The notes: generated from the letters alone by a model not told the origin. DNA of 46,589 bases from Fibrobacter sp. (GCA_017530965.1 JAFXLS010000062.1:1-46589); one strand, 5' to 3'; positions 14,793 to 32,359 are shown, counted from the first letter of the stretch. Numbers and translations are program-made.

Positions 14793-14834
14793 ATATTACA
14801 TAAAAAACGCCATGTACACGCCGTTTCGGTAACA
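14793..14834 (-). promoter_or_regulatory. Putative late promoter 4 (gp46-gp48-fibre unit)
   Basis: The minus-strand motif TGTTACCGAA (14825-14834) is followed after 26 bp by TAATAT (14793-14798). The same motif-to-hexamer spacing occurs at 17696, 28238 and 31926. It lies in the 58-bp gap after the gp45-like gene. Confidence 0.6.
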
Positions 14835-14842
14835 CCTTTTTT

Positions 14843-15388
14843 TTACGATCCAGGAGAAGGGGGGCTCGTAGGACCGACTGCGGAATTGTGCGAATGAGAA
14901 CTCAAATGAACGGCCGGAGGCGTATCCATAAGGCCCACTTGCGGAACATCCGTACACTTCGCCGCGATTTCGTCCGTCGACAGCACTTTACCGACAACAT
15001 GGACATCACCCTCGACGCGCAACGGCTTCCCGGTGTTAGTTTTAATCATGACAGAACCGTCTTTTTTCAAGATAATGCTCGAACCAAACGAAGAATGCAT
15101 GGCTACTTCGCCAGGCTCAAGGGATATCCCCATATCGTCGTCTTCGCCACGGCTCGCCACGACAACGCCGTTATCACGAGATCCGCCGACGAAAAGAGCA
15201 ACAGCACCGACAGAACCCTTCGGACGACTCGAAAAGCCATATTGCTGGAAAAAATCGACATCTTCACGGGATTCACCGGCAAGCAAGTCGATTTTCACAT
15301 GCTTATCTTTGCACGCGACGACAACGGCCCTGGCAATCATCAACCTGAGCCTCGACTTTATCGGGGAAAGCAAACGGTCAAAATTCAC
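14843..15388 (-). CDS. Baseplate spike/assembly protein, Mu gp45-like
   Basis: The 181-residue protein has an N-terminal OB-like half (IKSRLRLMIARAVVVACKD...VKIDLLAGE...FQQYGFSSRPKG) and a beta-helical C-terminal half with GSSIILKKDGSVMIKTN, ending in a His/Ser/Pro-rich tip (VHLSSHSHN). That is the spike plan of Mu gp45 and P2 V, in which tip residues bind iron. The preferred start is GTG 15388, which overlaps the preceding stop (GTGA); an ATG at 15433 lies deep in the upstream gene. Confidence 0.85.
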   Translation of the reverse strand: MNFDRLLSPIKSRLRLMIARAVVVACKDKHVKIDLLAGESREDVDFFQQYGFSSRPKGSVGAVALFVGGSRDNGVVVASRGEDDDMGISLEPGEVAMHSSFGSSIILKKDGSVMIKTNTGKPLRVEGDVHVVGKVLSTDEIAAKCTDVPQVGLMDTPPAVHLSSHSHNSAVGPTSPPSPGS

Positions 15389-16452
15389 TTTTTCGCCCCC
15401 GAAGCCTTCGTCTTCGCCTCGATGCCGTCCCACGGGTTGGCCTTCGACTTAACCTTGCCTTTGTGCTCAGGCGGCTGTGTATAATAATCCTTACGGACAA
15501 GTTCAAGAACAGCCACGGACCCAGAAGAATCATAAGACAATTCGACCGAATTCAAAAGCAAAGTCTCGACGAAATCACCGAAAAACGCAGGAATCAGGCA
15601 ATCCACCAAAAGACCTGGCCGCCAAAGCTTGCCGTTATTTCGCTTCCATCCATTCAATGTAACAGACAGCGTCGTAGACTTTGCAGAACGAGACAGAACC
15701 TCAAAAGATGCCCGTTTCCCGGCCGTTTCTACAGTCCCGTAGCCTTCGTCTACAAGGACAAGGCACCGTTTGCGCTTGATTTCACCATCGCTCGACTTGC
15801 CCTTTCTTTTAGTTTTAGGATCGCTCGAACAAAGAACAATACAATCGGAAAAACGTTCAGAATTGTCGTAAGACACAGACGCCGAAACGACATTGACGCC
15901 TTGCCGCAAAAAATCTTCGGCATACTCGAACTTACTTTCGTTGATAAAACGAACCGTGCCATCGCCGTCAGAGGTACACACAACGCACTTTTGATGGCAG
16001 ACATCCTGAATGACATCAAAACCAGTACATCCTGGATCAGGCACAAACTTTGCGATTTGACCATTATCCGGCAAGCCATTGGCGGTAAACACGAGCCCAA
16101 AGTCTTGACAAACCTCCCCCACAATTTGCGACACAGTCTTATTTTTCCAGGACTTTCCAAATTCTTCAATAGCACAATCCACCAAGTCGCAAGTTTTTTC
16201 ACGGCCGCTGACATCGATAGAATGATCGCTCGAAGAGAATGAAGACTGCATCGAGTCGACATATCCGTCAACCAGCAGCTCATCGTCAACTTCAATACGG
16301 ACGGCATCACCTGGAAAAAGAACCGGAGAACTAAAATCGTCGGCGACAAACTGCGACAAATTAAAGCCGTCACAAACCGTCGAAAGAGACAGCCTGACAC
16401 TAACAGACTTCCATCCCTTGACCTCAACGCCATCTTTGATCACCTTAATCAT
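15385..16452 (-). CDS. Baseplate hub protein, Mu gp44 (P)-like
   Basis: The 355-residue hub protein is of the Mu gp44/P2 gpD/T4 gp27 type and forms the ring from which the spike projects. Visible signs are an N-terminal beta barrel (KGWKSVSVRLSLSTVCDGFNLS), SSSDHSIDVSGREKTCDLVDCAI, the helix of the middle domain (KTVSQIVGEVCQDFGL) and a C-terminal barrel. It starts at ATG 16452, overlapping the N-like gene by 8 bases. It is unusually Cys-rich for the family. Gene order N-P-gp45 is that of Mu. Confidence 0.85.
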   Translation of the reverse strand: MIKVIKDGVEVKGWKSVSVRLSLSTVCDGFNLSQFVADDFSSPVLFPGDAVRIEVDDELLVDGYVDSMQSSFSSSDHSIDVSGREKTCDLVDCAIEEFGKSWKNKTVSQIVGEVCQDFGLVFTANGLPDNGQIAKFVPDPGCTGFDVIQDVCHQKCVVCTSDGDGTVRFINESKFEYAEDFLRQGVNVVSASVSYDNSERFSDCIVLCSSDPKTKRKGKSSDGEIKRKRCLVLVDEGYGTVETAGKRASFEVLSRSAKSTTLSVTLNGWKRNNGKLWRPGLLVDCLIPAFFGDFVETLLLNSVELSYDSSGSVAVLELVRKDYYTQPPEHKGKVKSKANPWDGIEAKTKASGAKK

Positions 16453-17665
16453 TGCAAAGCACCAAAAGTTTATCGGACGGCTTGACGAACAACGGATCCC
16501 TATAACCGTTTCTTTCGAGTACAGAGTCAAATTCGTCCAGGTTCCCATATACACCGTAAACCAGTGAGAGCAGATTATTCGTTTCCGGAAGCGATACCTC
16601 GACCTCGTAAGGAATACGGCTCAGCTGGTCTCGCAAGTATTTCAAAGATGCCGATTCCAGGGCCTGAGCCTGTTGGTATAAATCAGGATCATCCGTGTCA
16701 GACAGCATCTGGTCGAAAGCAGAGGCGACATTATCCTGGAAGCGCTCCGCTTCGCCAGAATTTGAAAATTCGCAATCGACAAGGTTTTCGGCCACCATCG
16801 ATGCACCCGTCATCCTCACAAGAGACGTCAGCGCGGCACGATTCGCCAACGAATACATGTCAAAAACGCCGTCAGACAAAGCAAAAGCCATCAATGCAAT
16901 CCCATTGGTAACATTGTCCTTCGGGTCAACATCAATACCAAGGATTTCGCCTGCCATCGTGATCAAATTCTGCAACCGAGCGGCAAAATCCGCAGGAGCC
17001 AGCAAAATCGTTTGAAGGTTAGACTTGATACGACCCACTTGCTTGACGAATTCGGACGCCTTTTGGATCGCCTTACGGGAAGAATACACGGCGTCGACAG
17101 CCTTGTACGACATCTCGACAGCCTTAGATAGGACTGATTTGCCCTTATTCGCCGTTTTCAGGTTTTTCGAAGCCTTGTCTAGAGACGTATTTCTCAATGC
17201 AACGGCTTTTTTCTTTACCAATCCGGAAAGAGATACAACAGAATTCTTCAGCTCGAAGTCATTTTCCGGAACGAATGTTACGGAGCCGGTAATGTATTCC
17301 TGGTAGTCGCCGTAAGAAAGATTGATCGGACCGCTGGAACGCGCCTTGAAAACCCCGAAATACGGGTGAACCAACTCGCCAGGGCCATCCTCGTTGCAGA
17401 CGCGCAGGAAATCATTTTTCTGATTTTCGGCATCTTCGCCGACAAAATAGATGTTGAACGAATACTTCGGGACATTTATGCCCGTATCCTCGTTCACGTG
17501 GTCGTTCGAAAACGGGATGCTGTTGGTCTGGACATTGCGCCCGCCGCCCGAAAACTCGGTCGATTCAAAGAAAAAAGGCACGCCCTTGAAAGAGCCCGCA
17601 ATGCATTCAACGGGCTCACCGCGTACCGGGATGGTCACTTTCTGGAGGGTATCGATATAAGCCAA
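16445..17665 (-). CDS. Tail/DNA circularisation protein, Mu gp43 (N)-like
   Basis: The 406-residue protein opens with the DNA_circ_N domain: PVRGEPVECIAGSFKGVPFFFES, GGGRNVQTNSIPFSNDHVNEDTG and PKYSFNIYFVGEDAE. In Mu this is the N protein, a hub-side tail component also called DNA circulation protein. The C-terminal two thirds are helical. ATG 17665 starts a unit preceded by a late-type promoter. It overlaps the P-like gene. Confidence 0.88.
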   Translation of the reverse strand: MAYIDTLQKVTIPVRGEPVECIAGSFKGVPFFFESTEFSGGGRNVQTNSIPFSNDHVNEDTGINVPKYSFNIYFVGEDAENQKNDFLRVCNEDGPGELVHPYFGVFKARSSGPINLSYGDYQEYITGSVTFVPENDFELKNSVVSLSGLVKKKAVALRNTSLDKASKNLKTANKGKSVLSKAVEMSYKAVDAVYSSRKAIQKASEFVKQVGRIKSNLQTILLAPADFAARLQNLITMAGEILGIDVDPKDNVTNGIALMAFALSDGVFDMYSLANRAALTSLVRMTGASMVAENLVDCEFSNSGEAERFQDNVASAFDQMLSDTDDPDLYQQAQALESASLKYLRDQLSRIPYEVEVSLPETNNLLSLVYGVYGNLDEFDSVLERNGYRDPLFVKPSDKLLVLCND

Positions 17666-17695
17666 AGCGGACCGCCTGTCTAACTATTCCAGTTA

Positions 17696-17737
17696 AACAT
17701 ACGATATTTGGCAATTATAAAGGGATGTTTGGTAACA
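17696..17737 (-). promoter_or_regulatory. Putative late promoter 3 (baseplate hub unit)
   Basis: TGTTACCAAA (minus strand, 17728-17737) is followed after 26 bp by TATGTT (17696-17701), the spacing seen at the other three late units. A better consensus -10, TATAAT at 17714-17719, lies between them and is an alternative. Confidence 0.55.
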
Positions 17738-17744
17738 GGAAATT

Positions 17745-18047
17745 TTAGCGAAATGACACGTTCAGGAATGGAACAATAGACCTAAAGTGCTCACCGTCGG
17801 CCATGCTTGCGGGAAAGGATAAAGAAAAGTAAACTGACAAGACCAAGAATAAAGTCGACACTATAATTACAGCTACATTGCGAGATTTACTTGAAGTTAG
17901 CTCGTAATGGCCAAAAATAAACGACACAATCGCAGCAACAGCTATAAGCGCAAAAGGAACAACAACCACAGAAACTATGTCCCAGAATATAACCAAGACA
18001 AAAGCTAACGCTGCCATCACGCCAATAATTGTACTTATAAGAACCAT
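17745..18047 (-). CDS. Small membrane protein (100 aa), moron-like
   Basis: The protein is almost wholly hydrophobic: helices at about residues 4-25, 27-48 and 58-80, then a short polar tail. It interrupts the Mu-like order between tape measure and N-like genes, has AT-rich flanks on both sides and its own promoter (18054-18082) whose predicted start is the A of the ATG; there is no Shine-Dalgarno. Such independently expressed inserts in late operons are typical lysogenic-conversion genes, often superinfection exclusion. The function is inference. Confidence 0.65.
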   Translation of the reverse strand: MVLISTIIGVMAALAFVLVIFWDIVSVVVVPFALIAVAAIVSFIFGHYELTSSKSRNVAVIIVSTLFLVLSVYFSLSFPASMADGEHFRSIVPFLNVSFR

Positions 18048-18053
18048 ACTATA

Positions 18054-18082
18054 AATATAATTTAAAATTTACAAAAAAGCAA
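18054..18082 (-). promoter_or_regulatory. Promoter for leaderless gene 17745-18047
   Basis: TTGCTT (18077-18082), a 17-bp spacer and TATATT (18054-18059) on the minus strand, then 6 bp to the ATG at 18047. The geometry is the same as at 28338-28366. Confidence 0.65.
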
Positions 18083-18089
18083 ATTTTTA

Positions 18090-19868
18090 TTAAAATGCAG
18101 GACTCATAGAAAAGCCGAACATTGAAGGATCGTCGAATCCTCTACGTTTAATAGTGGCATTTTTCGGCACATTATTGAAATTCACGTCAATCGTGCTATG
18201 ATGATTATTATTGACAGTCTTTGTCGATGTCACCGCCCTAAACAAATCAGAATCTTCCAAGTCGCCCATAGAAGAGGACAAATCAGCAACACCGGACTTT
18301 TCAAAATCGACCTTATCCACGCTTAAATTTTCAAGACCCTTTACAAGGCTTCCAAAAATTGGAATATCTTCGATTACGTCAAGCGAAACACGGAGTCCCT
18401 TGCTAAAACCTGACATATTTTTATAACGTTCGTCATTTTTGTCCGTAAGTTTTTCAAAAGCTTCTGCTGCCGCCCATGCAGCAGTCAAAGCTCCAGCCAT
18501 TTTCTTTGACGACATAATCGCAGAGTTCCCAGACTGTTCTAGCCCAACTTTCGCCTTTTTTGCAGACACCCCCAATTTATCGTACCCTGCAGCCGTTCTT
18601 TTCAAGGCATTCAGCAAACGACTCAACCGAGATTCCGTCTTTTGCGTAGCAACAGCAGTTTCACTTATTTTTTTATTAACCCCAGCGGTATCGGCCGTTG
18701 CCTTTTTCGCCGAGCTCGAAAACGACGTTTTAAAGAAATAAGCAACGCGCCAAATAGTATTCGCAAACAGTAGCATTGATTTCACCGCCGAATAAACCAT
18801 TACTACAAGTGGAAGTCCGACTCCAGAAAAAACAGTCAGCAGCACAGGCCACTTTACACCGATATAATCCACAACGGTCTTTACCGTACTGGCGACATCC
18901 ATAAATGCGTCAATAATTCCAGGCAAAGCGCCCGTAAAGACCTCAACCATTTCAGGAATCTTATTGATAAACGGCTGAATAGACTTGACCAATGTTTCAC
19001 GATTACTTTTCAAATACCACGTCAAATACTTGACAGATTCAGTCATTGGCCCAAACAAATCAGATGCCACCGAAATCGATAAATAATCTATTGCGCGTTT
19101 TAATTTTCCAACTTCATCTCGATACACCGCGCTTTTTTTAGCCTGATCTTCATCAATTATCCCAAGCGCAACCAGTTCATCCATTTGCTCTTTAATAGCT
19201 GCAGATCCCTGGTTTAAAACCGTAATCATATCGGCACCAGATTTTCCGAGAAGCTTTTGAGCCGCATAGATTTTTTGGCTAGCAGAAAGTTCACCTTTTC
19301 CAGTCACAGCAAAACGATCCGCCATCGCCAAAAGCAATTCCTGACTAGACTTTATAGATCCATCTGTATTTTTGACAGATATTCCCAAAGCTTTAAATGC
19401 TTTAACCTGCTCTTTCGTTCCTCCAGCAGCCTCTACTGATGCCTCAGAAAGTTTTTTCACCCCCTTTACAAAGGTTTCTGAGCTAACGCCAGCCAAATCG
19501 GCTACATACTCAAATTTCTGAAGTTCTTCTACTGTAAATCCAAGACGTTCCGAAAGCTTAGCTAGGTCATCTCCTTTTGCAGTAACCTTATCTAAAAGAT
19601 TGAATACGCCTACAACAGCATAACGGACATAGCCAAAACTTTCGCCAATATTTCGAATATTAAAAAAGAATTCCGTTGAACTTTTTTTCAACAAATTCAA
19701 ACTTTGGCCAAGGTCCTTAAACTGGAACGCCTTGCCTAATTTGTCAAGCGATTTATTGAGATTATTTACTGGTTTAAGCAAGTCATACAGTTTTTTTTCG
19801 AAAACCATCGTAGTCTTCGAAAACTTGTCCGTCATCGAAATAGTTGTCTCAAGTTTTTGTCCAGCCAT
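18090..19868 (-). CDS. Tail tape measure protein (592 aa)
   Basis: It sets tail length. The protein has a helical N-terminus (ISMTDKFSKTTMVFEKKLYDLLKPVNNLNKSLDKLG), a middle with FGYVRYAVVGVFNLLDK, a phage TMP-type helical domain (KLSERLGFTVEELQKFEYVADLAG, FKALGISVKNTDGSI) and two hydrophobic segments near residues 310-375, as in most tape measures. Short for the family, it predicts a short contractile tail. ATG 19868 overlaps the stop of the frameshifted chaperone (TAATG), the standard arrangement. Confidence 0.9.
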   Translation of the reverse strand: MAGQKLETTISMTDKFSKTTMVFEKKLYDLLKPVNNLNKSLDKLGKAFQFKDLGQSLNLLKKSSTEFFFNIRNIGESFGYVRYAVVGVFNLLDKVTAKGDDLAKLSERLGFTVEELQKFEYVADLAGVSSETFVKGVKKLSEASVEAAGGTKEQVKAFKALGISVKNTDGSIKSSQELLLAMADRFAVTGKGELSASQKIYAAQKLLGKSGADMITVLNQGSAAIKEQMDELVALGIIDEDQAKKSAVYRDEVGKLKRAIDYLSISVASDLFGPMTESVKYLTWYLKSNRETLVKSIQPFINKIPEMVEVFTGALPGIIDAFMDVASTVKTVVDYIGVKWPVLLTVFSGVGLPLVVMVYSAVKSMLLFANTIWRVAYFFKTSFSSSAKKATADTAGVNKKISETAVATQKTESRLSRLLNALKRTAAGYDKLGVSAKKAKVGLEQSGNSAIMSSKKMAGALTAAWAAAEAFEKLTDKNDERYKNMSGFSKGLRVSLDVIEDIPIFGSLVKGLENLSVDKVDFEKSGVADLSSSMGDLEDSDLFRAVTSTKTVNNNHHSTIDVNFNNVPKNATIKRRGFDDPSMFGFSMSPAF

Positions 19869-20256
19869 TACAGTAATCTCCTAAGACCACGCTTCAACAT
19901 TTCTTTTGCACTTTCAGACCAAAAAGAAAATTCGGAAACAGTCATCTTATAAACTTCAGATGGCTGCACTCCGAATCCTAGCACAAGAATTGCTACGTTT
20001 CCTCTCCATCCTTTTGGCCAAGATTGATAAAATTTCCTACAATCTCAGCAAGAGCGACACCATCAGCCATGGAAATCTTAGAAACCTTCGGCAAGGGCCA
20101 CCCAGTCGCAGCAGCAAGCATAGCACCAGTCTTGTCACCATCACCTTTCGCATTAGCAATTCGAATCATGTCGCCAACATCGAACTCTTCCCTGAGTTCA
20201 ACCGATTCGATAGTTTCTTCGCCGAACTTGAACGGCTTCTTGAATTTGTATTGCAT
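19868..20256 (-). CDS. Tail assembly chaperone, -1 frameshift product (129 aa)
   Basis: The 87-residue upstream frame can pass into the -1 frame at a slippery CAA-AAG (20016-20011) and continue for 47 codons, ending at 19868. The extension reads GWRGNVAILVLGFGV, then QPSEVYKMTVSEFSFW, then a helical tail, which matches the T-like extension of Mu gp41/P2 E-E' chaperones. The new stop overlaps the tape-measure ATG. There is no start codon suited to separate translation. The shift site is inferred from frame geometry. Confidence 0.7.
19993..20256 (-). CDS. Tail assembly chaperone, Mu gp41-like (87 aa)
   Basis: The unshifted product starts at ATG 20256 with a good GGAG upstream. YKFKKPFKFGEETIESVELREEFDVGDM is the usual opening of the Mu gp41/TAC family (all-beta start, then helices). 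It lies between tail tube and tape measure, as in all long-tailed phages; these proteins coat the tape measure during tail assembly and are not kept in the virion. Confidence 0.88.
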   Translation of the reverse strand: MQYKFKKPFKFGEETIESVELREEFDVGDMIRIANAKGDGDKTGAMLAAATGWPLPKVSKISMADGVALAEIVGNFINLGQKDGEET

Positions 20257-20343
20257 TTTAGCTCCTTTTGTTGTTTGTTAAAAAAAAATGCGGAAGCCCA
20301 AGGACGCGGGGATTTCTCCCCACGCCCAGGAGCTAGGGCATCA

Positions 20344-20721
20344 TCAAGACATGATTTCGGTCGCCTTGTCGCCCTGGAACTCGAACGAAACTTCGCCTTC
20401 AGCTCCGCTTACGGTCGGGTCGCCAGTGAACGAGCAGTGCGGGAAACTGACCACCTTGCCATTCGGGCAATACAGCGTAATCGTGGCGTCCTTCGTTTCG
20501 CGAAGGGCCTCGATATCGAGTTCGGATGTATTCGTTGTGGTTCCGGAAATACGGCTGTTGACCTTTTCGACCTTACAACCGTGAATCTTTCCGTCACCAG
20601 CACCGCGAATAACAGTGCGCTTCGTACCGCCAATATCAAACTCAGGGTCGCCCTTGAGCAGGAATTCAAGCTTGTCGACATACATCGTATAGATGCCGCC
20701 AACGTCATCGAATTGAGACAT
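20344..20721 (-). CDS. Tail tube protein, Mu gp40 (M)-like
   Basis: The 125-residue protein forms the inner tube. Its order, small beta-sandwich size and motifs (YVDKLEFLLKGDPEFDIGG, KIHGCKVEKVNSRISG, CSFTGDPTVSGAEGEVSFEF) match the Mu M family. The start is ATG 20721 with GGAGG 6 bases upstream. It lies 12 bases after the sheath gene and is followed by an 87-bp gap before the chaperone gene, long enough for a weak terminator that adjusts tube-to-chaperone ratios. Confidence 0.85.
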   Translation of the reverse strand: MSQFDDVGGIYTMYVDKLEFLLKGDPEFDIGGTKRTVIRGAGDGKIHGCKVEKVNSRISGTTTNTSELDIEALRETKDATITLYCPNGKVVSFPHCSFTGDPTVSGAEGEVSFEFQGDKATEIMS

Positions 20722-20733
20722 TTCACAACCTCC

Positions 20734-22293
20734 TTATTCGAACTGCAAGAGGGTCTTGCTGATAAAGAACTGTTTAATCAGGTTTGCAGGCGCGAGGAAC
20801 AGCAGCGCGTTCGGATCGTTCTGGTCAAGTTCAACCACGACATTCTGCCTGAACAAGTCGAAGTTCTGAACGAGGCCCATCTTCATCCAGTCCTGGTAAC
20901 GGGTGAGCAATTCGGACATACCCTTCTTCGGGGTCATCACGACCTGGCCAGGACCGAATTCATTACCGTCAGCAGCAAGCTTCGCACGCGGATACTTGCC
21001 AGACAAGTAGTTATTCCAGTCCCAGCGAAGGAAAGACAAGGTGAACACCGTTTCGAGCTGACGGTAACTGATGTCGCTTGCACCGTTTGCCTTGTACTTG
21101 TAGGTCGTCACGGTTCTGTTCAGATACACCGTACCGTCGTCGCCGACGAACAGCGCTGCAACACCCGCCTTCAGGATAGCGTTGCGGCTGGTGACTCCAA
21201 GGCGTTTGGCACGCTTGGGAGCAACCACGCCCTTCACAGCGACATTCGAGAGAGGCAGAGCCGGATCGTTAAGAGCAGACACCGCACAGGCACCCATCAC
21301 GGCAGCTGCGATATTGCACGGAGCAGTCGGGGAATCCGGGAGACCAGGCAAACAGATTACCTGGGAATTACGCGCATTGCCCGCAGTAATTTCGGCGGTC
21401 ATGTCGCCACCGACGCAGTAGAACAGGACACCCGTCTGCTGCTTCATGGCAGTCCAGCGTTCATCAAGTTTATCCTTGATGTAGGCCACGTTGCCGGTAG
21501 TGGTGTTGTCGCCCTGGTTGATGGCAATCGCATTGAACCAGGTTCCTTCGATAAGGTTGCCGACATTCTCTGCAGAGAATTCGGTATCACCCGAACCGCC
21601 GGAAAGATGCACGACATCCGTGCTTGCAAATTCGGTAATCGACACCCCGTTGGGAGTTTTTTCGCCTTCGTTGAAATTCAGGAAAATTGCAATGTCGTTT
21701 CCGGCCGCACCCTTGTTTTTCGCTGTAAGCGTGACAACACTGGAGGACACTGTTGCGACGACGGGCAAGTCGACCATGGAGTCAATCTTGGCTTTCAAGT
21801 TGCCAGCAATCGTGGCGGCAGTGTCAGTGTCAATCACGGTAACAGTAACCGCCTGACCGGCAATATTGAGATAGAGAGGTCCGCTTTCAGCAGCAGTGCC
21901 CACGAACGTGAGAGTTTTAGTCGCCTTGCCAGCGTCTGCAGACTGTCCGGATTCGACCAGTTCATCGGCAAGAGCAAGACAGTAAAGTTCCATGTAGGGA
22001 GCGTTCTTGAGGAAGTTCTTCGCCATAAGGGCAATCTGCGAACCCCTGCCAAACAAGGAGTCAGCCTGGTCGCCTTCCATGACGCGAACGAGCTTGCCGG
22101 TATTGTCGGTATTCGGACGCCACTTCTTTTCGGCATCAGGCGTAGATCCCGTGATAGCTCCGACAGCCTGGCCAATCAAAAGGTTTTTCCACGGCATCGG
22201 GCCAGACTTCGATGCACGTTCGTTGTTGATTTCCACGGCAAAAATCGGAACAAGGTTGTCCGCCGGGATTTCGCTGAACGGGATGGTAGACAT
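20734..22293 (-). CDS. Contractile tail sheath protein, Mu gp39 (L)-like
   Basis: The 519-residue sheath subunit drives contraction. Family signs are the N-terminus PFSEIPADNLVPIFAVEINN, the early helix domain (KNLLIGQAVG, ...FGRGSQIALMAKNFLKNAP) and the C-terminal region (FLRWDWNNYLSGKYPRAKLAADG, ELDQNDPNALLFLAPANLIKQF) that makes the inter-subunit mesh. Residues about 127-207 form an inserted Ig-like domain, common in Mu-type sheaths and here similar to one in the head decoration protein. ATG 22293 is preceded by GGAGG. Confidence 0.93.
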   Translation of the reverse strand: MSTIPFSEIPADNLVPIFAVEINNERASKSGPMPWKNLLIGQAVGAITGSTPDAEKKWRPNTDNTGKLVRVMEGDQADSLFGRGSQIALMAKNFLKNAPYMELYCLALADELVESGQSADAGKATKTLTFVGTAAESGPLYLNIAGQAVTVTVIDTDTAATIAGNLKAKIDSMVDLPVVATVSSSVVTLTAKNKGAAGNDIAIFLNFNEGEKTPNGVSITEFASTDVVHLSGGSGDTEFSAENVGNLIEGTWFNAIAINQGDNTTTGNVAYIKDKLDERWTAMKQQTGVLFYCVGGDMTAEITAGNARNSQVICLPGLPDSPTAPCNIAAAVMGACAVSALNDPALPLSNVAVKGVVAPKRAKRLGVTSRNAILKAGVAALFVGDDGTVYLNRTVTTYKYKANGASDISYRQLETVFTLSFLRWDWNNYLSGKYPRAKLAADGNEFGPGQVVMTPKKGMSELLTRYQDWMKMGLVQNFDLFRQNVVVELDQNDPNALLFLAPANLIKQFFISKTLLQFE

Positions 22294-23397: not shown

Positions 23398-23406
23398 GAC
23401 AACCTC

Positions 23407-24462: not shown

Positions 24463-25137
24463 TTAGTCCTTGACAGCGGCCACGCCCTTGAAGAAAAGGC
24501 AACGTGCGGCAAGCTTGTCCTTGACGGTTTTTGCATCGATGTTTTCGTCGATGATGGCGGCGGCATCGGCAAAGCAGCCGGTGCGTGCCATATCGGCATA
24601 GCCCGCTTCAGCAGCAGCGGTCTTGATGTCCTTGAGAAGGTAGCCGACAGGTTCCTCGGTTGCGTCGGCAATCGGGAAAAAGCCACCTTCGACGGCGTCT
24701 GCACCCTTGACATCTTCGGACTTATTGCCGATGGTGAGGGTCGCAGTCGTTTCGAGCGTGATGGTGGTGGAATCGGTACCAACAGCCTTGGCTTCGAGAA
24801 CCAACTTGCCGTTCGTAGTGTCGGCAGTCACGGTGAACTTCGTGTCGGCGGCTGCAGCGGTCACGACCTTTCCAAGCACGGCCGCAACAGTCGCGTCAGT
24901 GGAACTGACGTTGGCGACATAACTCGAAGAGCCAATCGTGAGAGTCACGGTCTTGTCGTCGGCGGCAGAGTAGGCAGACAGGGCGAAGGAATACTTAGCC
25001 TTTGCACCATCGCTCTCGACGTGTTCGACAAGGATGGTTCCGCGCTTGAGGTTCTGGTTCTTCCCGATTTTTACAGTTTCGCGCTGGATCGGGAATTCAC
25101 CAGCGATGTCGTTGTCAAATTTGAGTTCGTTGCTCAT
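24463..25137 (-). CDS. Head decoration protein D-like with inserted Ig-like domain
   Basis: The 224-residue protein is twice the usual ~110. Residues 1-48 (FPIQRETVKIGKNQNLKRGTILVEH) and 148-224 (GGFFPIADATEEPVGYLLKDI...CFADAAAIIDENIDAK...CLFFKGVAA) make up the lambda D-type trimeric decoration fold that stabilises the capsid. Residues about 50-147 are an inserted Ser/Thr/Ala-rich beta domain similar to the one in the tail sheath. The insertion would be displayed on the capsid surface. ATG 25137 follows the protease-scaffold gene by 3 bases. Confidence 0.85.
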   Translation of the reverse strand: MSNELKFDNDIAGEFPIQRETVKIGKNQNLKRGTILVEHVESDGAKAKYSFALSAYSAADDKTVTLTIGSSSYVANVSSTDATVAAVLGKVVTAAAADTKFTVTADTTNGKLVLEAKAVGTDSTTITLETTATLTIGNKSEDVKGADAVEGGFFPIADATEEPVGYLLKDIKTAAAEAGYADMARTGCFADAAAIIDENIDAKTVKDKLAARCLFFKGVAAVKD

Positions 25138-25140
25138 GAC

Positions 25141-25590
25141 TTACCCCTTGTTGAAAATTTTGGCGCTTACTTCAGCAGCCCATTCGGCATGCTTTTTAGA
25201 TTCGTCGGAAGCGGACGTATCAGAACCGCCGTGAACGGAATTCTGCGCAGCATTGCTCTTTTCAAGCGCTTCGATAGCGCGTTCCGTTTCGCTGGCTCCG
25301 GCAGGCTTTTTCTTGGCTTCGTCAAGTTCGGCTTTGACCTTCACAAGGTCTTCGGCCAGGGCCTTGATTTTTTCCTTGGCTTTCGCGAGCGCGAAAGCCG
25401 TCGCTTCGGCGACAGTCTTGTCGCCGTCGACGAATCCGGCCTTTTCTTCGCCGGTAATTTCGAGACCAGCAAAGACATCTTCGATGGAAGCAACACGGGC
25501 CTTGTAATCGGCGACAGCCTGGGCCTTGACGGCTTCCATATCCATAGCCTCGGGCTTTCCAGCTTCGGCTCCTTTATTGTTAGTTGCCAT
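25141..25590 (-). CDS. Scaffold protein from internal start (lambda Nu3-like, 149 aa)
   Basis: In-frame ATG 25590 is preceded by GGAGG with 7-nt spacing, better than most gene starts here. The product would be residues 282-430 of the protease frame, MATNNKGAEAG..., a helical, charged coiled-coil protein without the protease. In lambda, Nu3 is made exactly this way from within C and acts as the head assembly scaffold. Separate translation is inferred from the ribosome site. Confidence 0.7.
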   Translation of the reverse strand: MATNNKGAEAGKPEAMDMEAVKAQAVADYKARVASIEDVFAGLEITGEEKAGFVDGDKTVAEATAFALAKAKEKIKALAEDLVKVKAELDEAKKKPAGASETERAIEALEKSNAAQNSVHGGSDTSASDESKKHAEWAAEVSAKIFNKG

Positions 25591-26433
25591 AAAGGCACCT
25601 CCATTACTGATCCCTTGTCGTTTCATTTCTTCACAGACGTCATCAAGGGACATAACGCCGTCCGCAAGGTTAGCAGCGACAGCCTTGTCGCCGATAAACA
25701 CGCCTCCCTGGCCAAAATTCTTCTTTACATCTTCCGCAGTCGTGCCACGGTTACGGGCAACGGCGTCGATGAAAACTTCGGCAAGAGAGTTCAATTCTTC
25801 CTTAATCAGTTTCAGTCCTTCCGGGTCGTTCGGGTCCGGAGCCTTGTTCGGGCTCAAGTCAGAGACAACGACGGTCGTCTCGACGATAGACTTGCTGAAA
25901 TTCATGAATGCGCAAAGGACGCCGATAGAGCCGAGCGTTCCGTTGCTTGCCGTAAAAACTTTCTCGCAACTGGAACCCAGCCAGTAGGCGGCAGAGCACA
26001 TCATCCCGCCGGTGCGGGCGACAATGCCGTAAGGTTTCGATCCACGAGCATTGAAAATCTTGTCGGAAAGGTCGGAACACCCGCTTACTTCTCCACCCGG
26101 GCTGTTGATGTCGAAGAGGATTCCCTTTACCGATTCGTCGGCAAGGCATTCATCAAAAGCGGCCTCGATGCTGTTGTAGGTATCCTCATCGAAGTAATAA
26201 GACAGCCAGTTGCTACGGTAAGAAAGCGCACCGTCGACATGAATGACCGCAATGCCGTCATCGCGACGGGTGATGTTGTTTACCAGGTCGAGTTCGCCAT
26301 CGGGCTTCATTGCACCTTTCCAGTGTCCTTCGTCATCCACGAATTTTAGGTTCGTGGACGCAACGACATCGGCATCTTCCTTGCGGATAGCCAGGCGGGC
26401 GCTTAAAATTCGATTTAACATACTCTTCTTCAT
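25141..26433 (-). CDS. Capsid maturation protease (S49/lambda C-like) with scaffold tail
   Basis: The 430-residue protein carries an S49 (SppA-like) protease in residues ~55-275 with catalytic S147 (GGMMCSAAYWLG), catalytic K197 (SPNKAPDP), and the SPGGEV oxyanion/substrate strand at 111-116. The C-terminal ~150 residues are Lys/Glu/Ala-rich helix, the scaffold. Family: lambda gpC cleaves scaffold and portal in proheads. The whole layout, including an internal scaffold start at 25590, copies lambda C/Nu3. Confidence 0.92.
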   Translation of the reverse strand: MKKSMLNRILSARLAIRKEDADVVASTNLKFVDDEGHWKGAMKPDGELDLVNNITRRDDGIAVIHVDGALSYRSNWLSYYFDEDTYNSIEAAFDECLADESVKGILFDINSPGGEVSGCSDLSDKIFNARGSKPYGIVARTGGMMCSAAYWLGSSCEKVFTASNGTLGSIGVLCAFMNFSKSIVETTVVVSDLSPNKAPDPNDPEGLKLIKEELNSLAEVFIDAVARNRGTTAEDVKKNFGQGGVFIGDKAVAANLADGVMSLDDVCEEMKRQGISNGGAFMATNNKGAEAGKPEAMDMEAVKAQAVADYKARVASIEDVFAGLEITGEEKAGFVDGDKTVAEATAFALAKAKEKIKALAEDLVKVKAELDEAKKKPAGASETERAIEALEKSNAAQNSVHGGSDTSASDESKKHAEWAAEVSAKIFNKG

Positions 26434-26441
26434 TTTTTTAC

Positions 26442-27998
26442 CTACTGCAAAGCAGACTGTTCAGGATCATCGCTAGTAACACTGAAATTTTCCGTCTTGG
26501 ACACAGATCCAGGTTCGCCGATTCCGAGTTCCTTGCGCAAGGCAAGTTCGCTCGCATGGCCTTCGGCAACCGTCCTGTAATCGCCACCGTTAACCATTGC
26601 ACAAGCCATATCTCTGGAAATCAGCTGCTCGTCAATCTGCATCTTGATGGCCTCGGTTTCCTTTTTCGGATCGAGAAGGAACGCTGCATCGCCAATCCAG
26701 AGACACTGGCTCCACAACTTTCTCTTAATCGGATCATCGAAGAAACCCGGAGCGTCAATAATTCCCAGGAGCACGGCATTCGCAAGCCACTTTTCATAGA
26801 CAGGCTTGCAGAAATCAGCGACAAAGTTCATGCACATTTTCTTGAAAGTCTTCTGGCTTTCGAGAAGGGCCGCACGAACGGCGTTGTAACTGTTGTTGAA
26901 CTTACGGAGCACGACCTCGAAACTCACGCCAACAGCGGCCGCAGCCTCAGCAAAAATGCTTTCGACGAACGGCTGATAGTTGACATTCGGGCGCTGAGGA
27001 TTCAAACTGCTAATCTTTTGGCCCTGAGCTAAAGACCAAATTGCACCAGGTTTCATCTCCAAAGACGGCCGAGTGGCATCCGGAATTACGTTTCCGTAAC
27101 TATCAGTCCGTGTCTTTTCGACCCGCTCTTCTTCGGGAACATTCCCGTACAGCTCTTCGGCTTCGTCTGGCACGTTGTTTTCCAGGACAGCGGTAAAGCA
27201 TGCACTGATGACGGCCGCCATGAGTTCGGCATCCTGATAGCGCTCCTGTTGCTTGAGTTGGCAAATCACAGGAGCAAGAAGCGGAACGCCGCGACGCTGA
27301 TCCGTGCGGTCAGAGGTGAAAACGTGGATAACGTTCGGGTTACCAAACGCATCGAACGCAGGAACCCGAACGGAATCCACAAAATCGGTATAGTCATCAA
27401 AACTCCAAACAGGCTTCTGCGTAAAGTAGTAAGCCAGCGGAGCGTGATTCTTGTCGACCTCGATACCTTCGGCAAGCGCATCGGAATTCATCTGCCCGAG
27501 CGGGTTCTGGACGCGTTCGCCTTCGAGCAGTTTGATGTTCATTCCGTATGGAGCAAAATTCTTGTCGAAGCAAGAAAGCGCGAAGCAGTCGCCACCCAGC
27601 AGCGCTGTTTTCAGCGCGAGGTCCTGCAGCTGGAAAAAGTTGTTTGTCTTTTCGGCATCGCACTTCTTGTCGGTCGCCCAGAGGTTGAACAGGACCTTCG
27701 TCTTATTCGCCCACTTTTCAGCATCTTCACTTGTGAGCCCGAGCATTTCAGGCAGCATCAGGTTCGGCCGTGCCTTGATTCCAGTTCCGACGACATTCGT
27801 GTCAAAACTTGAAATCATCGCACGGCTAAACGTATTGTTCTGGAAGAGTTGACGGCTACGGCGACGCAAAATATCAAGGTCGGCAGAAATGTCGCGGTCG
27901 GCAGAACCATGCGGAGCATAGAACGCCCGGAGAGCTTCCGTTACAATCGAAGCTCCTTTCCAAGCAATTCCATAAGCACCAACAAGATTCTTTGCCAT
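26442..27998 (-). CDS. Portal protein (lambda gpB family, 518 aa)
   Basis: It forms the dodecameric DNA channel at one capsid vertex. Signs are AFYAPHGSADRDISADLDILRRRSRQLFQNNTFSRAMISSFDTNVVGTGIKA at the N-terminus, the EGERVQNP and GNPNVIHVFTSDRTDQRRGVPLLAPV core, and a helix (LRKFNNSYNAVRAALLESQKTFK) near residue 360. The length matches lambda B (533). ATG 27998 lies 5 bases after the W gene; the frame runs upstream to 28100 but would overlap W. Confidence 0.93.
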   Translation of the reverse strand: MAKNLVGAYGIAWKGASIVTEALRAFYAPHGSADRDISADLDILRRRSRQLFQNNTFSRAMISSFDTNVVGTGIKARPNLMLPEMLGLTSEDAEKWANKTKVLFNLWATDKKCDAEKTNNFFQLQDLALKTALLGGDCFALSCFDKNFAPYGMNIKLLEGERVQNPLGQMNSDALAEGIEVDKNHAPLAYYFTQKPVWSFDDYTDFVDSVRVPAFDAFGNPNVIHVFTSDRTDQRRGVPLLAPVICQLKQQERYQDAELMAAVISACFTAVLENNVPDEAEELYGNVPEEERVEKTRTDSYGNVIPDATRPSLEMKPGAIWSLAQGQKISSLNPQRPNVNYQPFVESIFAEAAAAVGVSFEVVLRKFNNSYNAVRAALLESQKTFKKMCMNFVADFCKPVYEKWLANAVLLGIIDAPGFFDDPIKRKLWSQCLWIGDAAFLLDPKKETEAIKMQIDEQLISRDMACAMVNGGDYRTVAEGHASELALRKELGIGEPGSVSKTENFSVTSDDPEQSALQ

Positions 27999-28003
27999 AA
28001 GCC

Positions 28004-28231
28004 CTAATGCGGAATCGACGCGACACAAAACGCCTTGCCACGACGTAAACCCTTCGCCGTGGCAAGACGACCTAACCACAAGTCCAACTGTTTCTGACAA
28101 CTATCCACAGACGCCCTGCTCAAGGAACGACCACCAATGGAATAACTCTGCGCTTCCAACGCTTTAGCAAGAGCCGCCTTAGCAGAAGCGACCATTTCTT
28201 CGCAGAGTTCGACAGGGTACAATTGAGCCAT
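28004..28231 (-). CDS. Head-tail joining protein gpW-like (75 aa)
   Basis: The small helical-hairpin protein has the W pattern: LCEEMVASAKAALAKALEAQSYSIGGRSLSRASVDSCQKQLDLWLGRL. In lambda, W fits between A and B and seals the portal. Here it lies next to the portal gene but is separated from terminase by two other genes. A TATTTT hexamer ends 6 bases before its ATG 28231, with the late motif upstream, so it heads a late transcript and may be leaderless; GGTG close to the ATG is a weak ribosome site. Confidence 0.8.
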   Translation of the reverse strand: MAQLYPVELCEEMVASAKAALAKALEAQSYSIGGRSLSRASVDSCQKQLDLWLGRLATAKGLRRGKAFCVASIPH

Positions 28232-28237
28232 AGCACC

Positions 28238-28279
28238 AAAATAGCCTTAATGCAATAGCTAACGGCGTTTTTGGTAACA
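28238..28279 (-). promoter_or_regulatory. Putative late promoter 2 (W-portal-capsid unit)
   Basis: TGTTACCAAA (28270-28279, minus strand) is followed after 26 bp by TATTTT (28238-28243). It lies in the 141-bp gap between the W gene and the divergent membrane-protein gene. Confidence 0.6.
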
Positions 28280-28337
28280 CAATAATTTCAATGCGTCAAC
28301 CGGCAAAACCTTACTTTAACTTGGATTAACTTTTTAT

Positions 28338-28366
28338 TTGCCTTTTTGGTTAATTTTGGTTATATT
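28338..28366 (+). promoter_or_regulatory. Promoter for leaderless gene 28373-28672
   Basis: TTGCCT 28338-28343, a 17-bp spacer and TATATT 28361-28366, followed by 6 bp and the ATG at 28373. The predicted transcript starts on the A of that ATG. Confidence 0.7.
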
Positions 28367-28372
28367 ATGGGT

Positions 28373-28672
28373 ATGGAAAAGCAGAATAAAAGGCTCTTAT
28401 CGAAAGAAACCCTTTTTACCGAATGGGTGTTTTTCTGCGCTTACTGGGGAACATTTGCCATTGCCTGGCATTTTGCGTCGTATATCGAAACAATGGTTCC
28501 CGGGAAATCCATTCTTTACGAATCAAACTGGCTAGTTCCAATCGCGTCAATATACATGTATTTCATGGGCGCTTACGTCGTGTTCATGGACAAAGCACCA
28601 GACCGAATACCCGTCATTTCTCGGTTTGCAAAGCTTTTTTGTAAGCCGAAAAAAACGCCCCCGCAATGTTAG
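28373..28672 (+). CDS. Two-helix membrane protein (99 aa), moron-like, against the late operon
   Basis: This is the only rightward gene inside 27 kb of leftward virion genes. Two membrane helices are visible: FTEWVFFCAYWGTFAIAWHFAS (about residues 15-36) and VPIASIYMYFMGAYVVFM (about 54-72), with a basic C-terminal tail (RFAKLFCKPKKTPP). It has its own sigma70-like promoter and predicted leaderless mRNA. ATG 28367 two codons earlier would be upstream of the transcript start. Its 3' end overlaps the convergent gene 28614-29312 by 59 bp. Likely expressed in the lysogen; superinfection exclusion is a guess. Confidence 0.7.
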   Translation: MEKQNKRLLSKETLFTEWVFFCAYWGTFAIAWHFASYIETMVPGKSILYESNWLVPIASIYMYFMGAYVVFMDKAPDRIPVISRFAKLFCKPKKTPPQC

Positions 28673-29312
28673 CCTTGCAAATCTGGCGGACAAGTTTCTG
28701 CCATCCCCATCGCGCCGGAACGACCACTTTCGGATAAAGTGCGTACAGCCATTCCAGATCGCGCGTCCCTGCGATGTGACGGGCGATAAAGCGCACGCCA
28801 TCGGTGCGCTCCATCTCGAACGGATGGTATTTCGAAGCGCTCTTGCGGGCAGACGGCCTGTTTTCCGCGTATCTACGGCCATTGCGAACCCTGGAACGGC
28901 GCTTGTTCTTTTTGGCATCAGCAATCAGCGCCGAAACATAGTAGCCCGGTTTCACCGACCCCTTCGATGTCAACCCGCCCTTCTCGGTAACGCCAGGGCG
29001 CGGCACCGCGACACCCTTTCCCGGCTTTGCAACCTTGTCGCCACCATATTCCTGTCGGGCCATGAACAGTTTGTCCATGTAAATCGACGCGAACTGCTTG
29101 TTCTTTTCCGCCTTATCGATGCGGATGAGGTTCGGCAACCCCTTTGAGCGCATTGTGAACTTTTTCGGGTAGTCTTCGATAAGGGCCTTGCGCGCCTTGA
29201 ACGCGACAGAGTTTATCGCTTCCTTCATGGCATACGGCAGTTGCTTCTCACGAACATCGCGCACTCCTTTTAGCAGCTTATCGACATTGCACGTCACATG
29301 AAAATCCATCAT
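28614..29312 (-). CDS. Putative minor tail/tail-completion protein (gpZ-like)
   Basis: The 232-residue basic protein has KQLPYAMKEAINSVAFKARKALIEDYPKKF, a helix pattern shared by phage tail-completion proteins of the gpZ/HK97-gp10 kind, and a Lys/Arg-rich middle (KKNKRRSRVRNGRRYAENRPS). ATG 29312 overlaps the terminase stop. In lambda the Z gene follows FII; here the gene lies between large terminase and W. The name is tentative; a packaging accessory is an alternative. Confidence 0.55.
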   Translation of the reverse strand: MMDFHVTCNVDKLLKGVRDVREKQLPYAMKEAINSVAFKARKALIEDYPKKFTMRSKGLPNLIRIDKAEKNKQFASIYMDKLFMARQEYGGDKVAKPGKGVAVPRPGVTEKGGLTSKGSVKPGYYVSALIADAKKNKRRSRVRNGRRYAENRPSARKSASKYHPFEMERTDGVRFIARHIAGTRDLEWLYALYPKVVVPARWGWQKLVRQICKANIAGAFFSAYKKALQTEK

Positions 29313-31195
29313 AGTTTCACTCCTTGGCTCACCACAAAGCCTTTTCGGATAGGAATCTTCTTTGCCGGATTCCTGGTATAGCTCTTTCCGGAATCGGCCA
29401 GCTTGTCAACATCTATCCCGACCAGGTTGATTGCCGCACGGGCATACACTCGACAGTCGAGCGGCTCGTTTCTATCATATATTTTTTCGTAGGAATAAGT
29501 CAAGAACCCGCGACTCATGTGTGACTTTTTCACTTCGGATTCGGCGAGCTGCTTGAAATGTTCCTGATTGTAGGCATCTTTCATCGGGAAATGGCAATAT
29601 CCGGGGCCCGGTTTTTCGAACGTAAGCACATTGAAGAACCAGTCCTTGATTGTATCGGTACCAACGGTAATCAGCTTCGCATTCTCTGCAGAGGACTTTT
29701 TCGTGGATCCGGGGCGACTAATAACGGGACTGTTAGGGCCACGCGCACCGATGCTCGCATATATACGCCGCCATTCCCGCTTTGCGCAATACTTGTACAC
29801 GGCCGTGGTCTTGTGGCCGCCCGAGTCCACAAGGGCCGCAGCCACATACAGCCGCGTACCGTCAGCCTTGGCATAGCTCGCGTTAATCAGGATGTCGTCA
29901 AGAGTTTCCCACACGTCATCCTGGTTCGGGTTGCCCGGAATAATCATGTAGTCGATGCTCCAGCTTTCGAGCCCACGGCCCCACCCTACAATTTCGCATT
30001 CCAGGCGGTCATCCTGCGTATCGACACCCGCAGTCAAGATTACCGCACCGTCAGGGACCTCGCAACCGTAATTTTCACGACGCAGGAGCAGTTCGGAGAA
30101 ATCGTGGCGGACCTGGTTTTCTTCGTCCCAGGCACGGCCTTCCACGTTGTTGGTCCACACCTTCAGCTTTTGCGGGTCGCCCTGCGCTTCCAAAAAATCG
30201 ATAACGATTTCTTCCCAAGAATACCACCCGAGCGGGCTATAGAACGCGCCCAAATGGTAGCTCGGGTAAGCCCCATTCGGGTTAGTGGGCACCCACTGCC
30301 CCTGTGCCATCAGTTCCGTCTTTCGCCATTCCTGGTATTCGCCACCGCAATGCGGACACTTCATGCGCACGGTAAACGGCAAGTGGTTTCCGGAAGAATC
30401 CTTGTCCCACACCATGTTCTTTAATTCCCACACGTGAAGCTCACCGCAATGCGGGCATGGCACGTTGTAGTAGCGCTGGTCGCCTGTCTCGAACTTCTTG
30501 GTGATGCGGCACTTGCCCTTGATGGTCGGCGTCGAGTTCCAGAAGCGCTTTCGGCGCGGAAAGTTCGTCGTTCTGCGCTTCACCAGGTCGCACGGGTCGC
30601 CTTCGCCGTTGCAGTCCAGCGGCCAACCCGAGATTTCGTCACAAAGAACAACCTGCAGGGGCTTCGAGCGCAGCTGCGAAGCGGATCCACCTGAACCGAG
30701 AAAGAAGATGCCACCCGGATACTCCTTGCAGCCGGCCGTGTCGCCCGTAAAATACTGGTCCATCTTCATCGCGGTAAATGTCGGAGCCAATCTTTGGCGT
30801 TCGAAATCTGCGGCGGCATCGTCAGTAGTCTGGTAAAGGCCAATCGGGCACGGGCTTTGCAGCATGTAGTAGAGAGCCGTGTTAATCATGCATTCCGTTC
30901 CGCCGACCTGCGAGCCTTTCATAAAGGCCACATCGCTGCAGGGGCTCTGCGGGCTAAGCATGTCCATGATTTCGACCAGGTAAGGCGTGCGCTCATTGGT
31001 CCACTTGCCCTTCGAAGCGGACGCCTCGCCCGCCAAGAGTCGGTTTTCTGCAGCCCACTGGCTAATCGTCTGATCTTTGGGCGGCGTGAGCCCCTGAATC
31101 AACCCGCCAAGGCAGAAATCCACGTTGCCTGTATAAGGCAGCGTGTTCTCGAATTTTTGCGCAACGGCAGTCGGTTCTGTCAGCTGTTCAGACAT
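29309..31195 (-). CDS. Terminase large subunit (lambda GpA family)
   Basis: The 628-residue packaging ATPase-nuclease is close to lambda A (641). The Walker-A-like loop is KGSQVGGT at residues 93-100, in the GpA style without a classical GKT. SGWPLDCNGEGDPCDLVKRRTTNF, the Cys4 zinc-like pair CPHCGELH and CPHCGGEY, and the nuclease start TAGVDTQDDRLECEIVGWG are present. Family members cut at cos. The gene overlaps the small subunit by 1 base. Confidence 0.95.
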   Translation of the reverse strand: MSEQLTEPTAVAQKFENTLPYTGNVDFCLGGLIQGLTPPKDQTISQWAAENRLLAGEASASKGKWTNERTPYLVEIMDMLSPQSPCSDVAFMKGSQVGGTECMINTALYYMLQSPCPIGLYQTTDDAAADFERQRLAPTFTAMKMDQYFTGDTAGCKEYPGGIFFLGSGGSASQLRSKPLQVVLCDEISGWPLDCNGEGDPCDLVKRRTTNFPRRKRFWNSTPTIKGKCRITKKFETGDQRYYNVPCPHCGELHVWELKNMVWDKDSSGNHLPFTVRMKCPHCGGEYQEWRKTELMAQGQWVPTNPNGAYPSYHLGAFYSPLGWYSWEEIVIDFLEAQGDPQKLKVWTNNVEGRAWDEENQVRHDFSELLLRRENYGCEVPDGAVILTAGVDTQDDRLECEIVGWGRGLESWSIDYMIIPGNPNQDDVWETLDDILINASYAKADGTRLYVAAALVDSGGHKTTAVYKYCAKREWRRIYASIGARGPNSPVISRPGSTKKSSAENAKLITVGTDTIKDWFFNVLTFEKPGPGYCHFPMKDAYNQEHFKQLAESEVKKSHMSRGFLTYSYEKIYDRNEPLDCRVYARAAINLVGIDVDKLADSGKSYTRNPAKKIPIRKGFVVSQGVKL

Positions 31196-31908
31196 CAGTC
31201 TAAAAAGTTCTCCGGAGTGCGGTCGCTCAAGTCCTTGAGCACCGTAATCGATTCCTTACGGATGATTTCACCGATTTCGTGGTTAGAGTCCTTCATGGCC
31301 ACGCGCAGCTTTTCAGCCTCGATTCCGGACATGCTTAACTGCTCCTGGATATGGCCAACAATCTTCGGAGCAAGCTGCACGTACATGTTCATGACCTTTT
31401 CCTGGATCATGGCTCCAATCTGGTAGGCCTTCAGGAACACCGTCTGCTTGTCGACAAGGCGACCTTCAAGTTCGTCGGCCTTAAACTTGGCGACTCTGGC
31501 GTTATGGAACTCTTTTTCCGCTCTCGAAACTTCAAATTCCTGGCGTTCCTGCATCACGGATCCGAAATCAATTCCCTGGACAGGAGCCGAAACGGGCTTC
31601 GGGGCCTGCGGATTCTCGTTGCCAAGGATGTGGGCAGTCGCCTGGGCATCGATGTTGTCGTAACCGGCGGCCATTTGCCCGCGAGTCGGAGTAGTGACCT
31701 TGCTGCGGTCCTTCTTGAGCGTCCACTGCTGCGCCGAAACCACCTTGTGGTAGCACTTTTCACCACGCGAATTCCGGAAAGTGTCGAGCCGTCCCTTGGC
31801 GGTCGCCTTCGATACTGCCGCACCAGAGACACCGATCTGTTTGGCAAACTGGGCCCCTGTTTCAAGTTCTTCGTCCGTGTATGAATGTTTGTGGCGTTGG
31901 TAGTCCAT
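31195..31908 (-). CDS. Terminase small subunit (Nu1-like)
   Basis: The 237-residue DNA-recognition subunit has residues 15-60 as a winged helix (GAQFAKQIGVSGAAVSKATAKGRLDTFRNSRGEKCYH), then a linker, and a long helix (QERQEFEVSRAEKEFHNARVAKFKADELEGRLVD) for oligomer and large-subunit contact, the plan of lambda Nu1. ATG 31908 has AGAGG upstream. Repeated TTAACC motifs begin 2 bases upstream and extend 450 bp, a good candidate for its binding region. Confidence 0.88.
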   Translation of the reverse strand: MDYQRHKHSYTDEELETGAQFAKQIGVSGAAVSKATAKGRLDTFRNSRGEKCYHKVVSAQQWTLKKDRSKVTTPTRGQMAAGYDNIDAQATAHILGNENPQAPKPVSAPVQGIDFGSVMQERQEFEVSRAEKEFHNARVAKFKADELEGRLVDKQTVFLKAYQIGAMIQEKVMNMYVQLAPKIVGHIQEQLSMSGIEAEKLRVAMKDSNHEIGEIIRKESITVLKDLSDRTPENFLD

Positions 31909-31909
31909 T

Positions 31910-32359
31910 GTTAACCTCTAAACCAAGATTAACCGAAAACGCCGTTAAAGAGTTAATTTTGGTAACACGAAAAAATCACCCGGCAACCCGGGACCCCGTT
32001 AACCCACCCGAAAATCTCAAAAAGTTGGATTCAAAGTCGCGCGCGCCCCCCCATTGGAGCTCCGCAAGCTGGAGCAACCCTTTTTGACGGGGGGCCTGGG
32101 GCGGGGGCGGGCGCCCCTGGACTTGATTAACTTTGAGCTTAACCGATTAACCAACGCAAAGCGGAGAGACCCGCCCACGTACCGCCGAAGCACGCGCAAA
32201 AGCGCACAGTTGAACGGCTTGCGACGATTAACCACGCACGACCCATAAACCGCACGGACGGTTAAGATAGAGGTTTACAGCGCACGCGACGACGCCGGAA
32301 CAACGGCGTTAACCCACACGAACGGGGTTGGGGCCCACCCCTGCGTTAACTTGTTAACC
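31910..32359. repeat. Cluster of TTAAC[C/T] repeats
   Basis: Copies of [ACG]TTAAC[C/T] start at 31910, 31928, 31998, 32125, 32138, 32145, 32226, 32308, 32345 and 32353, against a GC-rich background. Two are extended as CGTTAACCCAC followed by a CGAA (31997 and 32307). Five contain the palindrome GTTAAC. They probably bind a phage protein; small terminase (cosB), ParB-like protein or replication initiator are the candidates. Confidence 0.65.
31926..31967 (-). promoter_or_regulatory. Putative late promoter 1 (terminase unit)
   Basis: TGTTACCAAA (31958-31967, minus strand) is followed after 26 bp by TAATCT (31926-31931), about 18 bp before the small-terminase ATG. It shares spacing with the promoters at 28238, 17696 and 14793. 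Confidence 0.6.

Follow-up and report, generated by a model that had tools for sequence, protein, structure and literature searches.

In phage Mu, the Pm promoter has a −10 element but no −35, and the Mor site extends from −51 to −36 as a dyad centred at −43.5 (PMC4287176). Mor and C of this phage are each specific for their own related promoters (PMC4287176; PMC4461284). In phage P2, four late promoters are served by a phage activator, Ogr, whose site is TGT-N12-ACA (PMC3931495). A search of the literature on transcription control in phages of Fibrobacter, a rumen bacterium, returned nothing. We analysed a stretch of 46,589 nt from Fibrobacter sp. (GCA_017530965.1 JAFXLS010000062.1:1-46589), hereafter the window, which contains a phage. 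A sequence-only reading of this stretch had proposed that four of its virion transcription units share a recognition word at a fixed distance from a −10-like hexamer, and that an activator acts there in place of a −35 element.

The pattern TGTTACCRAA-N26-TANNNT matched the window four times, on each occasion on the minus strand and 5' of a virion operon (Table 1). In all four sites, the hexamer starts 36 nt past the first T of the word. The positions, the hexamers, their exact spacing and the identities of the downstream genes were confirmed as that reading had given them. In the 3.06-Mb genome, the 42-bp pattern occurred at these four sites only, and 100 dinucleotide-preserving shuffles yielded no match. 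Across 111 genomes of the family, the background was ∼0.2 matches per genome, similar to that of a reversed control pattern, and the four-site set recurred in a single other genome, G053, which carries a close relative of the window phage. When up to two mismatches were allowed, the 10-mer alone was observed 89 times against an expectation of 70; this excess is only slight, and the mismatched 10-mer was rejected as the signal. The signal is the exact word together with the fixed spacing.

Table 1. Late promoters, the genes that they precede and candidate regulatory genes in the window.
Feature	Coordinates	Strand	Details
Late promoter 1 (terminase unit)	31926..31976	-	A/T tract, TGTTACCAAA 31967-31958, -10 TAATCT 31931-31926
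Late promoter 2 (W/portal/capsid/tail unit)	28238..28288	-	TGTTACCAAA 28279-28270, -10 TATTTT 28243-28238
Late promoter 3 (baseplate hub unit)	17696..17746	-	TGTTACCAAA 17737-17728, -10 TATGTT 17701-17696
Late promoter 4 (gp46-like wedge/fibre unit)	14793..14843	-	TGTTACCGAA 14834-14825, -10 TAATAT 14798-14793
Small terminase, first gene of unit 1	31195..31908	-	phrog_57
gpW-like head-tail adaptor, first gene of unit 2	28004..28231	-	phrog_118
Baseplate hub, first gene of unit 3	16445..17665	-	phrog_184
gp46-like baseplate wedge, first gene of unit 4	14350..14784	-	phrog_180
Accessory membrane-type ORF, directly upstream of late promoter 3	17745..18047	-	G+C 0.40 (low)
f32, small protein whose gene is beside or close to that of M in many phages; second candidate, or a partner of M	39660..39893	+	
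M domain, candidate late activator and word reader, three helices	40456..40647	+	GTG start behind GAGGAG; in frame with ParB-like protein
ParB-like protein, in frame downstream of M	40648..42246	+	ParB_N PF02195; internal ATG preceded by AAGG

Homologues of late promoter 1 were found in about 20 phages, and late promoter 3 is missing from phages that have no gap ahead of the hub gene, such as P119. Small accessory ORFs are located just upstream of two of the promoters: the membrane-type ORF listed in Table 1 precedes late promoter 3, and 28346-28672 on the plus strand precedes late promoter 2. In relatives, an additional late promoter stands before the tape-measure gene where the accessory gene f38 is inserted. 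The late promoters seem to re-start the operon downstream of inserted genes.

Near-matches of the form TGTTACA, with TAnnnT 35-36 nt downstream, occur on the minus strand at 36079, 34202 and 33294, upstream of 35404-36006, an NYN-domain gene and 33074-33247. These are possible weaker members of the regulon. The related phage P112 has an exact TGTTACC, 36 nt ahead of a −10, just behind its repressor.

Related phages were gathered by their portal and terminase genes and longer stretches were added; ParB queries for further phages gave no additional records. Names beginning with P denote contig stretches from collections, which in some cases cover a phage only in part. The DNA read in these relatives was that upstream of TerS, W, the hub gene and gp46. 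Across distinct promoters, a TGnnnC word was found 36 nt (35 nt in one class) before TAnnnT in an A/T-rich frame. According to an open scan of offsets 33 to 39, 65 word-hexamer pairs lay at 36 and far fewer at each other offset; the TGGTYC phages (P054 type) use an offset of 35. When 16 phages were each searched with their own word and A/T flanks over offsets 20 to 49, 46 matches were found at 36, with a maximum of seven at any other offset. The related phages preserve the geometry but differ in the word.

We then aligned 62 distinct promoters on the first T of the word. Columns −8 to −2 were 79-100% A/T and column −1 was 87% G/C. Within the word, T1 was present in 100%, G2 in 94-100% and C6 in about 90% of promoters, with positions 3-5 and 7 variable; because the word lists consisted of TG-words chosen near TAnnnT, columns inside the word and hexamer are partly so by construction, whereas spacing, flanks and word sharing are independent of how the lists were selected. 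Columns 8-12 are A/T-rich, a weaker T-rich patch is present at 17-20, and TAnnnT follows at offset 36, with T in 79% at its fifth position and often with TG after it. If the hexamer is taken as −12 to −7, the word is located at −48 to −42, with A/T tracts on either side of it (roughly −56 to −50 and −41 to −37). The site contains no dyad (best complementarity 0.33) and no direct repeat, and a word built on either was rejected.

The sequence-only reading had also noted that no −35 was evident, and this held across the 62 distinct late promoters: with spacers of 15-19, the mean best match to TTGACA was 2.97 versus 2.91 in shuffled spacers. In 400 kb of a host relative, TTGAC-N15-20-TANNNT was found eight times in upstream regions versus once on the opposite strand, a weak indication that host promoters normally have a −35.

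The words could be assigned to the classes TGTTACC (window, P111, P112 and P119), TGTTACCC/TGTAACC (P123), TGTGACG (P115, P116, P118, P052 and P108), TGTGYC (P037, P084, P120 and L141, with P113 and P124 mixed), TGTTYC (P089 and P024), TGGTYM (P054 and P122) and TRAGAC (P088 and G136). The table of classes by phage was nearly diagonal, 52 of the 58 matches being in the main word class of their own phage. Within single phages, the words of the TerS, W, hub and gp46 promoters, which lack homology to one another, differed on average at 0.66 of 7 positions. Permuting the words among phages raised this mean to 2.12, and none of 20,000 permutations was as low as the observed value. With near-identical phages removed, the corresponding values were 0.89 and 2.27, and again none of 20,000 permutations was as low. 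Moreover, in P054, P024 and P124, the additional late promoter that precedes the tape-measure gene carries the word of the phage itself. Set against this, mixed words were present in P113, P124, P024 and L041, which indicates either that specificity is not absolute or that promoters moved recently.

A second prophage, with the words TGTGCC and TGTGTC, is present in the metagenome-assembled genome from which the window comes. The presence of two prophages with different words in one bacterial genome makes a host factor unlikely, if the binning is right, and a word that varies between phages but hardly within them is expected of a phage-encoded activator. We consider it very probable, from these comparisons, that the word is read by a phage-encoded trans factor. 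The earlier proposal that an activator would stand in for the −35 is well supported by the conservation of spacing and word across relatives, the variation between phages and the lack of a −35.

In the more distant Fibrobacter phages L158, L159, L160, L162, L165 and L045, TGTCA-N5-TGACA palindromes occur around the TerS and W promoters; their position varies and in some cases is 3' of the −10, an arrangement that looks like repressor control of late genes.

We screened early gene families for a protein that could read the word. Gene calls came from a codon model that had been trained on structural genes of these phages and were then clustered into families, and a family was excluded if it was near-identical in phages with different words. 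Most families were removed by this rule, including the exonuclease (96% identical across different-word phages), SSB (97%), f25 (90%), f28 (92%), f29 (88%), f34 (99%), the XRE proteins of the lysogeny region (92%), rep (at least 86% in some different-word pair) and f43, which comprises CxxC zinc proteins (94-98% between TGTGACG and TGGTYC phages). The small Cys-rich proteins, which the sequence-only reading had put forward for gel shift, were dropped as activators as they are either shared by different-word phages or not universal: the product of 45123-45332 has a 95% identical counterpart in a phage that uses another word, and that of 44626-44856 was present in only 2 of the 35 records searched.

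Two near-universal early families passed the exclusion, M and f32. M is the only one that lacks similarity between different-word phages yet is well conserved within the TGTTACC class. The global rank correlation of M distance with word distance was modest, at 0.27 (rho; p 0.02), and that of the M helix region was 0.40 (p 0.008). The late hub gave a rho of 0.51, above M; that the correlation for M does not exceed that for some late genes follows from the relatedness of whole genomes, and the Mantel correlation was rejected as proof because it is too confounded by this relatedness.

M comprises ∼60 amino acids with three predicted helices and a 50-residue ungapped core. In the core, residues W, G, R, C, C and R are invariant, and the variable positions 20, 21, 24, 25, 28 and 30 approximate one face of the second helix in a model of middling confidence (pLDDT 80, pTM 0.58). 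Comparison of M with Pfam, PHROGs and the PDB, by sequence or fold, yielded no significant match; a likeness to Myb/SANT or GcrA domains was seen by eye only and is not claimed. M was detected in 12 of the 111 family genomes, 11 of which also have the portal gene of this phage group, and the rest of the phylum gave one weak match. In the window, P111, P112, P119, P123, P113, P024, P084, P037, P089 and P124, M is fused to the N-terminus of the ParB-like protein, and most of these fusions contain an internal Met where the two parts join. It is a separate small gene in P115, P116, P052 and P054. In the window, the two parts share one open frame (40456-42246, plus strand), in which AAGG lies 8 nt upstream of the ATG where they meet; translation could therefore begin at either of two nested starts and give two products. 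P088 (L117/L118, contig C36 of G088) carries a copy of M and f32 outside the early operon and separate from ParB; this copy immediately precedes the terminase operon and has the late orientation.

The distribution of M sequences was then compared with that of the words. No different-word pair of M proteins was at least 65% identical. Members of the TGTTACC class have M proteins with identities of 82% or above, although identity between the window and P119 falls to 58% in the ParB part. P024 and P119, which use different words, are 68% identical in the ParB part and 44% in M. P037 has a window-like TerS (96%) and portal (88%), window-like head genes and conserved flanks of the TerS promoter, and despite its window-like TerS and portal has TGTGTC words and the M of TGTGYC phages. 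In the bacterial genome with two prophages, each has an M of the class matching its own word. P123 uses nearly the word of the window (TGTTACCC, TGTAACCG) but its M is only ∼30% like that of the window. On balance, these data make M a somewhat probable reader of the word and activator. If M has this role, a phage with the M found on contig C135 of G079, GRSPLACRTFCRRNGVQF, is expected to use TGTT[TC]C, and the early region of L041 is expected to encode a TGTTYC-type M. The chance seems about even that M founds an undescribed family of late activators. In such a family, the hypervariable helix face of a three-helix protein would read the four to five variable bases within an invariant A/T-TG-C frame and the −35 would be replaced at a fixed spacing, with at least six activator-promoter pairs and, in some phages, fusion to a ParB-like protein.

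An HNH_3 nuclease encoded at 42520-43245 on the plus strand begins with an M-like domain (HMM 5e-28) and also contains an HTH_28-like stretch. The M-like head of this nuclease fits a DNA-binding role for M, and the enzyme is perhaps a homing endonuclease that shares the domain of the activator. The early protein of 43238-43969 (plus strand), which is present in 8 of the phages compared, contains the motifs YPDFKSVLP and MAMPIK, which by eye recall the beta sliding clamp. At the other end of the window, 445-561 (plus strand) matched the Rfam tRNA model (39 bits) with ∼46 extra nt in the region of the anticodon arm and was not called by ARAGORN. It lies ∼1 kb from an integrase-like gene (1582-2631) and is possibly an odd tRNA or a remnant of an attachment site.

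The word might be read by other proteins of the early region. The ParB-like protein is near-universal in the early operon, and its own HTH could recognize half-parS-like words as VirB and KorB do, with M as a side domain. Consistent with this, the ParB N-termini of TGTGACG and TGGTYC phages are near-identical while their HTH regions have diverged, and distances between ParB HTH regions correlate with those between words (rho 0.29, p 0.012). Nevertheless, P088, P113 and P123 combine an almost identical HTH with three different words, and P119 and P024 have the HTH in common but not the words, such that the HTH was rejected as the determinant of the word. As the sites also lack a palindrome, and M is encoded separately from ParB in the TGTGACG and TGGTYC phages as well as in P088, reading by ParB is unlikely. 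We judged it similarly improbable that f32, a small beta-rich protein, reads the word, either alone or as an obligate partner of M. This protein adjoins or overlaps M in many phages, accompanies it upstream of TerS in P088 and has no different-word pair at 65% identity or above. However, it is only 42-66% identical among the TGTTACC phages, in which M is far better conserved, and its predicted fold (beta3-alpha2-beta, in the order beta-beta-beta-alpha-alpha-beta; pLDDT 91) gave only insignificant matches, mostly to iron-sulfur scaffold proteins of the IscU/SufU type.

Other explanations dispense with an activator of this kind. A phage alternative sigma factor, or appropriation of sigma, that recognized the word and the −10 together would likewise produce a fixed word and −10 without a −35. 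This is very unlikely, given that the 29 nt between word and −10 are far beyond the span of sigma regions 2 and 4, that the −10 is host-like and that the early products of the window that were scanned include no sigma-like protein. It is also highly doubtful that the words are operators of a repressor or host regulator, or linkers at recombination boundaries between phage modules, even though the sites do occur at module borders and the palindromes near the late promoters of distant Fibrobacter phages resemble repressor operators. A single position in every phage, −48 to −42, together with the lack of a −35, suits activation better than repression; two words in one bacterial genome do not suit a host regulator; and linkers need neither an exact 36-nt spacing to the −10 nor a phage-wide identity of the word.

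Overall, we regard as probable an explanation in which the late promoters of this temperate Fibrobacter phage depend on an activator and M is that activator. Host RNA polymerase would take a normal −10 (TAnnnT) and find no −35. An early protein of the phage would bind TGTTACC at −48 to −42, between the A/T tracts, and recruit polymerase through contacts that we infer, and the terminase, head/tail, hub and baseplate/fibre operons would be switched on together. In the relatives, which share the frame and the 36-nt spacing but use another word, activator specificity and promoters would have diversified together. The activator would be M, which is here the N-terminal part of a fusion with a ParB-like protein and elsewhere the product of a separate gene. 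If correct, this would describe how phages of a dominant cellulose digester switch on their late genes and would offer a compact candidate for orthogonal gene control. It would also provide a natural series of activators and promoters in which word and reader change and the frame is constant, making the evolution of regulatory specificity testable.

The proposed system resembles that of Mu Mor/C in that an early or middle phage product would turn on the next class of genes, and the position of the word, with the site centred near −43, matches that of Mor. However, Mor and C bind a dyad as dimers whereas the site described here is asymmetric, and here one fixed spacing is combined with many words across phages. 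The Mor family (PF08765) had no match in these phages; one match below threshold was on contig C44 of genome G088. With the zinc-finger activators P2 Ogr and P4 Delta, the phage shares four late promoters, a putative phage activator and the same operon logic, but its sites contain neither TGT-N12-ACA nor an inverted repeat. No Ogr_Delta (PF04606) match in the phages was over the cut-off, and the weak matches fell in frames of 644-668 amino acids, not in small proteins. The analogy to Mu C and P2 Ogr drawn from the sequence alone thus stands for the geometry, with its centre near −43, and falls for the protein, as no Mor or Ogr homologue was found, and for the dyad. The half-site of parS is TGTTTC. 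It resembles the TGTTNC of the present words, and a ParB_N protein follows M in frame; unlike the sites of ParB, KorB and VirB, however, those described here lack palindromic symmetry, and the ParB HTH does not track the word. Replacement of the −35 by an activator is a known class of mechanism; the variable code and the protein family would probably be new.
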